32,308 nt of DNA from a virus, in IMG/VR virus record IMGVR_UViG_3300021964_000281, positions 1 through 32,308 of that record. One strand, 5' to 3'. Positions 23,076 to 25,375 of this stretch are shown here, one piece after another; the first letter of the stretch is position 1, and every line of letters begins with the position of its first letter. Under the pieces are notes generated by a model, which ran no database searches, was not told the origin of the DNA, and saw nothing but the letters and a program-made list of their open reading frames with translations. The position numbers were made by a program, and so were the translations under genes.

Positions 23076-24404
23076 ATGGAATACATGTACGAACAACTCC
23101 AACAGAAATGGCAACCAATTATTGAGCATGCTGACCTTCCAGAAATCCAGGATAGTCACAAGAAATCAGTAACTGCTGTCTGTTTGGAAAACACAGAGAA
23201 GTCTCTAAGAGAGAATGCAGGATTCGCTCCTAATTCTTTACTTGCTGAGGCTCCCGCAAACGCTACTGGTTCTAGTATTGATAACTACGATCCAGTATTA
23301 ATTAGCTTAGTTAGAAGAGCTATGCCTAACTTAGTCGCTTATGACTTAGTTGGTGTTCAGCCTATGACAGGACCTACAGGTCTTATCTTTGCTATGAGAA
23401 GCAGATATACTTCTCAGTCAGGCTCAGAGTCTTTCTACAACGAAGCTGATACTTCATTCTCAACCCAAACTGCTGGTAACACAACATTGGGTGAGGCAAA
23501 CTCTAGCAACCAAGGTACTGAGCCTTCAGGTAACTCTGCTACTTACAACTTTGCAAGTGGTATGGAAACAACTGAAGCTGAAGCACTTGGTGATGGCGGT
23601 GGAACAAACTTCGCAGAGATGGCATTCAGCATCGAGAAGATTTCTGTCACAGCTAAATCTAGAGCTCTTAAAGCAGAATACTCAATGGAACTTGCTCAAG
23701 ACTTGAAAGCTATTCATGGTCTTGACGCTGAGACAGAACTTGCTAACATTCTTTCTACAGAAATCTTAGCTGAGATCAATAGAGAAATCGTAAGAACAGT
23801 TAACCTTGTTGCTGTACCTGGTGCACAACAAAACGTTTCTTCCGGTGGTACTTTTGACTTAGACGTTGATTCTAACGGTAGATGGATGGTTGAGAAGTTC
23901 AAAGGTCTTATGTTCCAAATCGAGAGAGAAGCTAATGAGATTGCAAGAGGAACAAGAAGAGGAAAAGGTAACATCATGTTATGTTCTTCTGACGTTGCTT
24001 CTGCACTTCAAATGGCTGGTGTATTAGATTACACTCCTGCTTTGAACAGCAACAACTTACAAGTTGATGATACAGGTTCTACATTCGCTGGTGTATTAAA
24101 CGGCAGAATTAGAGTCTACATTGACCCTTACTTTGCACCTTCTTCAGGTGTACACTACATGACTGTAGGTTATAAAGGTTCATCAGCATTTGATGCTGGT
24201 CTGTTCTATTGCCCATACGTTCCACTACAAATGGTGAGAGCGGTTGGTGAGGACACATTCCAACCAAAAATTGGATTCAAGACAAGGTACGGCGTTGTCG
24301 AGAACCCATTTGCGAGAGGAACTGATGCCCTTGCTTCTAACGGTGCATTATCACAAAACCTTAACAAGTACTACAGAAGAGTGTTGGTCAACAACATCAT
24401 GTAA
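23076..24404 (+). CDS. 23: Major capsid protein gp23
   Basis: 442 residues (T4 521, so insertions seen in T4 are shorter here). Typical gp23 sequence includes DPVLISLVRRAMPNLVAYDL then GVQPMTGPTGLIFAMRSRY, KISVTAKSRALKAEYSMELA, QDLKAIHGLDAETELANIL and VGYKGSSAFDAGLFYCPYVP. The HK97-like fold forms the hexamers of the head. The N-terminal 58 residues are probably a delta-domain removed by gp21, since LAE followed by A at residues 56-59 fits the (L/I)xE cleavage rule. AAGGAG precedes the ATG, and a strong terminator follows the stop. Confidence 0.96.
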   Translation: MEYMYEQLQQKWQPIIEHADLPEIQDSHKKSVTAVCLENTEKSLRENAGFAPNSLLAEAPANATGSSIDNYDPVLISLVRRAMPNLVAYDLVGVQPMTGPTGLIFAMRSRYTSQSGSESFYNEADTSFSTQTAGNTTLGEANSSNQGTEPSGNSATYNFASGMETTEAEALGDGGGTNFAEMAFSIEKISVTAKSRALKAEYSMELAQDLKAIHGLDAETELANILSTEILAEINREIVRTVNLVAVPGAQQNVSSGGTFDLDVDSNGRWMVEKFKGLMFQIEREANEIARGTRRGKGNIMLCSSDVASALQMAGVLDYTPALNSNNLQVDDTGSTFAGVLNGRIRVYIDPYFAPSSGVHYMTVGYKGSSAFDAGLFYCPYVPLQMVRAVGEDTFQPKIGFKTRYGVVENPFARGTDALASNGALSQNLNKYYRRVLVNNIM

Positions 24405-24426
24405 TACAAACCTTTTATGGTTTTTA

Positions 24427-24452
24427 GAGGGGCTTTTAGCCCCTCTTTTTTT
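24427..24452 (+). terminator. Intrinsic terminator after the capsid gene
   Basis: Stem GAGGGGC (24427-24433), loop TTTTA, stem GCCCCTC (24439-24445), then seven T. It isolates the riboswitch unit that follows from capsid transcription. Confidence 0.93.
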
Positions 24453-24466
24453 ATCTGTTGATTTTA

Positions 24467-24474
24467 TATAAATA
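24467..24474 (+). promoter_or_regulatory. T4-type late promoter TATAAATA of the riboswitch unit
   Basis: Perfect late box between the capsid terminator and the first aptamer. Predicted start near 24480 puts both aptamers in full inside the 5' leader of the 54-residue ORF, a leader of about 140 bases. Confidence 0.82.
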
Positions 24475-24495
24475 ATATTGTATAGTAATATACAT

Positions 24496-24543
24496 CGTTC
24501 ATCTCTAACGAGACGGAAGTAGTCAATAGTGACGAAGGAACGC
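24496..24543 (+). ncRNA. Glutamine riboswitch (glnA/Downstream-peptide class), copy 1
   Basis: The conserved core of the glutamine aptamer is present. CGTTCA begins the P1 stem (24496-24500) and pairs with GAACG (24538-24542). A small hairpin TCTC/GAGA follows, then the invariant ACGGAAGTAG, a second hairpin GTCA/TGAC, and the closing CGAAGGAACGC. This arrangement matches the three-way-junction RNAs shown by Ames and Breaker to bind L-glutamine. The identification is from remembered consensus, not a covariance search. It is followed 8 bases later by a second aptamer. Confidence 0.85.
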
Positions 24544-24550
24544 ATTGTTA

Positions 24551-24598
24551 CGTTCATCTAGTAATAGACGGAAGTAGGCAATGGTGCTGAAGGAACGC
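24551..24598 (+). ncRNA. Glutamine riboswitch (glnA/Downstream-peptide class), copy 2
   Basis: Second aptamer with the same architecture: P1 CGTTC (24551-24555) with GAACG (24593-24597), hairpin TCTA/TAGA, ACGGAAGTAGG, hairpin GGCA/TGCT and TGAAGGAACGC. Stem bases differ from copy 1 in a compensatory way (TCTC/GAGA to TCTA/TAGA; GTCA/TGAC to GGCA/TGCT with one G-U pair), which is internal evidence for a structured RNA. Tandem aptamers are known for this class and usually sharpen the response. This copy abuts the hairpin containing the ribosome site. Confidence 0.85.
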
Positions 24599-24617
24599 AA
24601 TCTTCTATAGGAGATTG
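24598..24617 (+). promoter_or_regulatory. Hairpin hiding the ribosome-binding site (possible expression platform)
   Basis: CAATCTTC (24598-24605) and GGAGATTG (24610-24617) can form eight pairs, one of them G-U, closed by TATA, so the GGAG ribosome site for the ATG at 24620 is fully paired. The helix starts on the base right after the P1 stem of copy 2 and could stack on it. Ligand-stabilised P1 would then favour a translation-off state. The direction of control is inference. Confidence 0.5.
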
Positions 24618-24619
24618 AC

Positions 24620-24784
24620 ATGACTAAATATCAAATTGCTCGTTTCAAACGTGCAGTCAAAAGGGATCTTACTAAGGAAATATTAAGCCCTAAAGCTAAG
24701 AATCATAGAATAGCTAAATCTTCTGGTCCAAGAGACGAGGAAAGATTTTTGCCTGAATATGCGACTAATAATCCTTGGTACTAA
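24620..24784 (+). CDS. Riboswitch-controlled small basic protein (Downstream-peptide type)
   Basis: 54 residues, too short for usual ORF cut-offs. The start is supported by GGAG 6 bases upstream, by the riboswitch leader and by a terminator right after the stop. The N-terminal half is basic and helical (MTKYQIARFKRAVKRDLTKE), the middle is Lys/Ser/Pro-rich, and the end is GPRDEERFLPEYATNNPWY. Small conserved ORFs behind this RNA class in cyanobacteria and cyanophages gave the motif its name. In cyanobacteria a glutamine riboswitch controls a small basic inhibitor of glutamine synthetase (IF17, gifB). A comparable role here is an attractive guess, but I see no clear sequence match to IF7 or IF17. 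Confidence 0.8.
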   Translation: MTKYQIARFKRAVKRDLTKEILSPKAKNHRIAKSSGPRDEERFLPEYATNNPWY

Positions 24785-24787
24785 CAG

Positions 24788-24809
24788 AAGGGGCCAATGG
24801 CCCCTTTTT
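24788..24809 (+). terminator. Intrinsic terminator after the riboswitch-controlled ORF
   Basis: Stem AAGGGGCC (24788-24795), loop AAT, stem GGCCCCTT (24799-24806), continuing into a run of T ending at 24809. It begins 4 bases after the stop and makes the riboswitch unit monocistronic. Confidence 0.9.
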
Positions 24810-24840
24810 ACTCGTTGACTTTAAACCGCTATAGAGGTAA

Positions 24841-24848
24841 TATAAATA
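24841..24848 (+). promoter_or_regulatory. Late promoter TATAAATA directly before the tube-fold gene
   Basis: Perfect late box between terminator and gene. With T4 spacing the predicted transcript begins at 24854, exactly the A of the ATG, implying a leaderless message, since the GAGGT ribosome site at 24834-24838 would lie upstream of the transcript. Confidence 0.65.
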
Positions 24849-24853
24849 CTGTT

Positions 24854-25375
24854 ATGACTGGAACTGAACCTACAACAACAAACTTTCTATCTCCTCTAGG
24901 ACATAGATTTTTCATTAAGAAGATCCCGACAGTGAACTTCTTTGTACAGAATGTCGCTATTCCTTCCATAACAATGGGCGAAACACCGGTCCCTACACCT
25001 TTCACTAAAATACAGTTGCCTGGTGATCAAGCAACATATGGCGATCTAGTAATCACATTTAGAGTTGATGAAAACTTAGATAACTATATGGAACTGTATA
25101 ATTGGATGAGAGCAATATTAAGGGTCGATGATTTTACAGAATCTACTGCATGGGTGAACGAGGCTAATAACCCAATGTCTGATGATCGAGTGTTTAGTGA
25201 CGCAACATTGACTATATTGAATAGCGCAATGAATCCTAACAAAGAAGTTACATTTACGGACTGCTTTCCTACTTCTCTATCAGATATTCCGTTCTCTACG
25301 CAGCTAGCTGATGTAGATTATGTTGAATGTACAGCTACATTCAAATACAGAAAATTTGAAATAGAGAATATATAA
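24854..25375 (+). CDS. Tail tube-fold protein (gp19/gp54 superfamily; possibly gp3)
   Basis: 173 residues from the ATG at 24854. An in-frame ATG at 24797 lies inside the preceding terminator and is rejected. The sequence TNFLSPLGHRFFIKKIPTVN, VQNVAIPSITMGETPVPTPF, KIQLPGDQATYGDLVITFRV, then DENLDNYMELYNWMRAI, has the same strand order as the gp19-type tube fold encoded at 18065, with a different body. Related T4 proteins are gp19, gp54 and gp48. By position after the capsid gene, T4-like cyanophages carry the tail-completion protein gp3, whose T4 length (176) also fits. It is therefore a tube initiator or terminator component rather than the main tube. Confidence 0.7.
   Translation: MTGTEPTTTNFLSPLGHRFFIKKIPTVNFFVQNVAIPSITMGETPVPTPFTKIQLPGDQATYGDLVITFRVDENLDNYMELYNWMRAILRVDDFTESTAWVNEANNPMSDDRVFSDATLTILNSAMNPNKEVTFTDCFPTSLSDIPFSTQLADVDYVECTATFKYRKFEIENI

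Follow-up and report, generated by a model that had tools for sequence, protein, structure and literature searches.

The window analysed here, a virus record of 32.3 kb taken at its full length, covers the part of a T4-like phage genome that encodes structural proteins, with genes for sheath, capsid protein gp23, tail-tube protein and helicase. Downstream of the gp23 major capsid gene (23076–24404, plus strand, as are all window features given below; PHROG 138 major head protein, E 5.8e-167) lies a compact cassette with a terminator on either side. The upstream one, an intrinsic terminator called by a scan (24426–24452), consists of the hairpin AGAGGGGC-TTTTA-GCCCCTCT followed by a T-run, while the one at the cassette end (AAGGGGCC-AAT-GGCCCCTT-TTT, 24788–24809) was found by eye, a simple scan not calling it, and has its equivalent in nearly every relative of the enclosed gene, where a hairpin and T-run directly follow the stop codon. 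Between them are found a T4-type late promoter box (TATAAATA, 24467–24474), overlapped by a weak sigma-70-like promoter candidate (TTGATT-17-TATAGT, 24458–24486, 9 of 12 matches), two tandem aptamers (24494–24546 and 24549–24601), a hairpin CAATCTTC-TATA-GGAGATTG (24598–24617) that encloses the Shine-Dalgarno (SD) sequence GGAG (24610–24613), and the gene of a basic mini-protein of 54 residues (24620–24784). A sequence-only reading of this DNA had proposed a self-contained glutamine-sensing unit isolated by terminators, including a short ORF with its ribosome site, and all of these elements are borne out. Beyond the cassette, a further TATAAATA box (24841–24848) precedes the tail-tube protein gene (24854–25375; PHROG 45 tail tube, E 6e-45). 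This second box lies just 5 nt 5′ of the ATG and 3′ of a GAGG ribosome-site-like stretch (24834–24856), so that the late tail-tube transcript may be nearly leaderless or may use another start.

Both RNAs are full-length matches (positions 1–53 of 53) to the RF01739 covariance model of the glnA (glutamine-I) class, scoring 60.4 bits (E 3.8e-11) and 55.6 bits (E 7.8e-10, both E-values referring to the whole window) against a gathering cut-off of 35 bits, confirming the two glutamine aptamers postulated earlier. The accompanying label of Downstream-peptide (glutamine-II) RNA has to be withdrawn, as the score with the RF01704 covariance model, 12.2 bits, falls short of the 33-bit cut-off; both aptamers are of the glnA class only. 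Crystal structures have defined the ligand-contacting bases of the glutamine-I aptamer, in which C60 pairs with G23 upon glutamine binding (PMC11477058). Alignment to the model and to the published construct places the contacting residues C1, G2, G22, G23, C58, G59 and C60 in both copies, and by analogy with members of this aptamer class studied in the literature, the window RNAs are expected to bind L-glutamine.

The expression platform is tied to the aptamer by a covarying anti-SD hairpin that begins at C60 of aptamer 2 (base 24598), directly past its stem P1. In the fold model of the free leader the SD is nearly all paired, its unpaired probability not exceeding 0.04. With the register fixed, 78.3% of the hairpin pairs can form across 83 distinct viral leaders, compared with 69.1% for permuted leaders (none of 1000 permutations reaching as high) and 38–56% at shifted registers. 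Compensatory pairs among phages include CAATC/GATTG, CATC/GATG, CACCT/GGGTG and CACTT/GAGTG, and the cyanobacterial IF17/IF7 leaders carry CGCCTC/GAGGCG in the layout of the phage hairpin. Removal of the two pairs formed by C60 and A61, bases common to the hairpin and aptamer 2, halves the hairpin energy from -6.8 to -3.3 kcal/mol; since the 6 bp left over nevertheless stay closed in the model, free energy by itself does not prove SD release. Glutamine-I RNAs preceding glutamine synthetase (GS) or amt genes do not contain this hairpin, and one RNA class may thus serve opposite outcomes. Since the IF17 riboswitch, whose layout is the same, reportedly acts as an ON switch upon glutamine binding (PMC6316151), the best inference is that glutamine would likewise turn on translation of the 54-residue ORF. 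A further pairing, between TAGTCA of aptamer 1 and TGACTA spanning the start codon, extends over 6–8 bp in nearly all family members and also appears in the minimum free energy fold, while tandem leaders before unrelated ORFs mostly offer 2–5 bp, reaching 6–8 in a few that start with ATGAC. As it is devoid of compensatory changes, this pairing is indistinguishable from shared ancestry and is regarded as a lead only.

The encoded protein is under purifying selection, with pairwise dN of 0.12–0.15 against dS of 0.66–1.0 for relatives 74–78% identical, and dN/dS of approximately 0.15–0.2 versus the nearest relatives. It is basic (pI 10.2), and AlphaFold2 predicts a confident helix for residues 3–21 followed by a low-confidence remainder. 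Successive IMG/VR searches, beginning with the protein and continuing with alignments, identified 9, 12 and 35 loci in turn, encoding proteins of 45–55 residues that start with MT(K)Y...RAVK, end with LPxYxxxNP(W/F/Y)Y(P), and nearly always follow tandem aptamers (L040 has a single one). This is an undescribed mini-protein family. Pfam, PHROGs and PDB searches with the window ORF returned nothing significant, the best match being PHROG 5489 (unknown function, E 0.019), and neither tblastn with three family members nor blastn with the leader found a true relative among 50,697 phage records. Some relatives (L051, L075, L297, L301 and L302) contain YRG motifs recalling the DUF4278 part of IF17, and the Pfam model of this domain (PF14105) matched neither the window ORF, nor 13 aligned relatives, nor two YRG-bearing relatives. 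Homology to the GS-inactivating factors (IF7 domain, ARxLM...RQQxML) was rejected on the basis of an hhalign probability of 0.2% with one aligned column, and the Ala-Arg pair that IF7 and the window ORF each have close to the start is not conserved in the window family. Phage mini-ORFs of the WC/YCR type were also rejected as relatives, their weak N-terminal similarity amounting to E 0.031 in a single comparison. Pfam, PDB and IF7 profile comparisons thus revealed no homology of the ORF to a known nitrogen regulator. Pointers to nitrogen metabolism, and hence to a putative function there, come from the switch held in common with IF17/IF7, the small basic character of the protein, and the YRG motifs of some relatives; the protein may act in the manner of an inactivating factor, though it is not classed as one.

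The complete unit, comprising tandem aptamers at approximately -125 and -69 relative to the ATG, SD hairpin, ORF and terminator, recurs beside genes for gp23, a tail-fibre-like protein, tail sheath, single-strand binding protein, DnaB helicase and ribonucleotide reductase. In two IMG/VR phages (L347 and L349) the site is empty, leaving 90 nt between the gp23 and tail-tube genes compared with approximately 449 nt in the window and its closest relatives, with a tail-tube protein 100% identical to that of the window and flanks of approximately 96–97% nucleotide identity. Because phages approximately 97% identical in the flanks have an empty site, the cassette looks to have moved recently, and the many insertion sites, together with this empty one in near-identical phages, agree with the acquired module suggested earlier. 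As in mobile cassettes of the T4 type, the unit has its own promoter and terminator and is present or absent at one site in close relatives. Each end of the insert abuts a terminator T-run and then a GTTGA-TTTA motif, suggesting insertion by recombination between like junctions. The gp23/tail-tube site is also free of the cassette in phages Melnitz, Mosig and DLP6. Many cassettes adjoin a gene of approximately 70 residues (MS..KSG(Y/F)E(I/L)R(A/T)(D/E)LL..AQ..), or share the gp23-to-tail-tube gap with it (L155, L281, L160, L040, L354, L356). In L352 this gene is separated from the tail-tube gene by approximately 340 nt of G+C-richer, non-coding-looking DNA (2090–2430) that has no Rfam or tRNA/tmRNA match and a fold that is not unusually stable.

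As for timing, TATAAATA boxes occur nine times in the window, on the coding strand every time, against 3.6 expected. Within 45 nt upstream, this box is found in 36 of 125 viral leaders (0.7 in shuffles) and two of 71 cellular ones (1.2 in shuffles), and NATAAATA in 57 of 125 (3.5 in shuffles) and five of 71 (3.5 in shuffles), respectively. Since the boxes are enriched before viral leaders and hardly before cellular ones, phage copies often stand under T4-type late promoters. Sigma-70-like sites (up to three mismatches) show a mild excess across viral leaders, 23 versus 9 in shuffles; approximately two as good as the window candidate are expected by chance in the scanned region, and as a promoter this candidate was rejected as being at chance level. 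The earlier proposal of late expression therefore holds as concerns the late-type box, but not to the exclusion of other timing, since the weak sigma-70-like site overlaps it.

The cyanobacterial or cyanophage setting implied by the sequence-only reading is not supported, because the closest gp23 proteins belong to phages of heterotrophs, namely Stenotrophomonas (72%), OM43 (68%) and SAR11 (66%), cyanophages being interleaved and then below at no more than 67%. When bacterial genomes were scanned for the aptamer core, matches lay at cyanobacterial IF17-type genes, at amt, GOGAT and GS genes of marine bacteria, and on SAR86 contigs with members of the window ORF family. Among 203 SAR86-order genomes, five related ones carry the gene (four complete copies, one cut by a contig end) and one more a distant version, while one further match with internal stops is probably spurious; SAR86 is the only source of chromosomal homologues found, in a protein search of that order, which likewise speaks against the implied cyanobacterial setting. 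Neighbouring genes of the SAR86 copies are metabolic rather than phage genes. One SAR86 leader (L269) matches the leader of the T4-like phage L159 at 128 of 134 positions (95.5%), the RNA being more conserved than the proteins, which are less than 60% identical. Glutamine-I RNAs score above the cut-off in 81 of 202 SAR86-order genomes, preceding GS and GOGAT genes among others. In view of these homologues, the near-identical leader and the frequency of such RNAs in the order, SAR86 or a relative is a reasonable guess at the host of the mini-protein family, short of proof for the window phage. Another mini-ORF family, ending in (K)KDVFFPYYL, occurs behind tandem glutamine-I aptamers in SAR86 and a gammaproteobacterial genome (L179, L255, L257).

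The window family is one of several. A viral scan for glutamine-I RNAs yielded at least 119 loci, and among the matches listed 110 leaders have an SD and start codon close behind the aptamer, nearly all leading into mini-ORFs of approximately 28–65 residues, an arrangement also seen in Melnitz and Mosig. These 110 divide into unrelated families: WC/YCR (43), YRG/DUF4278-like (18), GTSGY (13), the window family (10, nine of them tandem), DPRLQ (7), MNTII (5) and others (14). YRG-repeat mini-proteins follow glutamine-I aptamers in L048, L011, L020, L102 and other phage loci, and that of L048 matches DUF4278, the N-terminal domain of cyanobacterial IF17, with 26.5 bits against a cut-off of 25.3. 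No description of these phage families was found in the open-access literature searched, in which the 2011, 2015 and 2018 riboswitch papers were represented by the papers citing them.

Taken together, these data are probably best explained by a mobile, self-contained phage cassette, made up of late promoter, two tandem glutamine-I aptamers, SD-masking hairpin, small basic protein gene and terminator, in which glutamine switches on the 54-residue protein, a putative glutamine-gated regulator of host nitrogen assimilation. Without glutamine, the SD would be locked in the hairpin that starts exactly at C60, the first base past the closing stem of aptamer 2; with glutamine bound, G23 of the aptamer would take C60, the hairpin would lose this base, and the protein would be translated. 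In cells the glutamine-I switch also precedes IF17/IF7, GS, GOGAT and amt genes, and from this nitrogen link we infer a product that regulates host nitrogen assimilation (GS, PII or similar), like the cyanobacterial GS-inactivating factors but not homologous to them.

The same switch could instead serve a phage process such as lysis timing, late transcription or assembly, with glutamine as a cue for biosynthetic capacity. Late-type promoters, the position of the cassette among structural genes in the window phage, and the lysis timing suggested for the Melnitz riboswitch (PMC9004378) favour this alternative, but the cassette position varies freely between phages, and the family is also found amid metabolic genes of SAR86 chromosomes, where phage functions make no sense, so that we consider it rather unlikely. 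A change of polarity, with glutamine repressing the ORF and expression confined, for instance, to nitrogen-poor cells, would fit the GS, GOGAT and amt genes that glutamine-I RNAs precede in marine bacteria, where repression is expected. It is made improbable by C60 and A61, whose sharing between the masking hairpin and the ligand-bound aptamer means that binding should open the hairpin, by the ON polarity reported for IF17, and by the hairpin being missing from GS and amt leaders.

Presence or absence among near-identical phages, the many insertion sites and the like motifs (T-run, GTTGA-TTTA) at both ends would also be consistent with a selfish or hitchhiking element, transferred from one terminator/promoter junction to another with no strong benefit to the window phage, yet selection on the protein, conserved hairpin pairing and retention in SAR86 chromosomes render this very unlikely. 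Least credible, to the point of being nearly dismissible, is a reading in which the RNA is the functional product, acting as a glutamine-binding decoy or as a small RNA, and the ORF is incidental: it would account for RNA being conserved more than protein between SAR86 and phage copies, but not for a dN/dS near 0.15–0.2 or for the conservation of SD-to-start spacing and of the SD-masking hairpin.

Phage riboswitches are few, and are usually read as controlling known genes. Here a glutamine sensor repeatedly precedes tiny uncharacterised proteins in many phages, and the unit is found on SAR86 chromosomes as well. New in this analysis are the mini-protein family, the empty site, the SAR86 homologues and the SD hairpin at C60 of aptamer 2. 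As near-identical phages are free of the cassette and a few SAR86 bacteria have a related copy, it has the look of a mobile component by which phages sense host nitrogen state. It offers a compact, testable route to asking in what way the phages of abundant ocean bacteria sense that state and may alter it. A broader proposal, which we advance tentatively and would not call likely, is that glutamine-gated mini-proteins form a mobile toolkit common to marine T4-like phages. These proteins, in several unrelated families of approximately 28–65 residues under a glutamine-I ON switch and often a late promoter, would play for the phages the part of the cyanobacterial GS-inactivating factors and would be exchanged with SAR86 and other heterotrophic hosts. 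The tandem version might then be a two-key gate, aptamer 2 guarding the SD and aptamer 1 (TAGTCA) the start codon (TGACTA).

Mobile regulatory cassettes of T4-type phages, reportedly described by Arbiol et al. in 2010 as promoter/hairpin-bounded units shuffled between T4-type genomes, resemble the window cassette in these boundaries and in mobility, whereas the window unit adds a metabolite sensor and its own gene. The cyanobacterial gifB/IF17 riboswitch (PMC6316151; PMC7760959) shares its Rfam class, the hairpin layout from C60 and a small protein behind; the window unit differs in its tandem aptamers, phage late promoter and a protein without homology to IF17/IF7. In marine picocyanobacteria, the glutamine-II (RF01704) leaders that precede short DUF4278 ORFs (PMC2864571; PMC6316151) also join a glutamine-sensing RNA to a tiny protein, but the window aptamers are of a different class and its ORF is devoid of DUF4278. 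A 2018 review described the glutamine-I class as ‘restricted to cyanobacteria’ (PMC6316151), a statement beyond which the present findings widen it. The riboswitches of Melnitz and Mosig (PMC9004378) likewise belong to T4-like phages of marine heterotrophs and place an aptamer before a mini-ORF, but with a single aptamer, unrelated mini-ORFs and other genome positions. That of Melnitz was published as controlling tmRNA, and the accessible text makes no mention of the mini-gene pointed out here, a 32-residue ORF (MTLYQQWCYLKAQKEYRRRQKILMYFRIRLKG) with a ribosome site behind the aptamer at 45146–45194 of MZ577095.1 (L135, 1572–1670). In Mosig (MT647606.1) a 51-residue ORF of the DPRLQ/DPRMQ family follows the single aptamer at 92197–92250 (L136, 1329–1484, minus strand).
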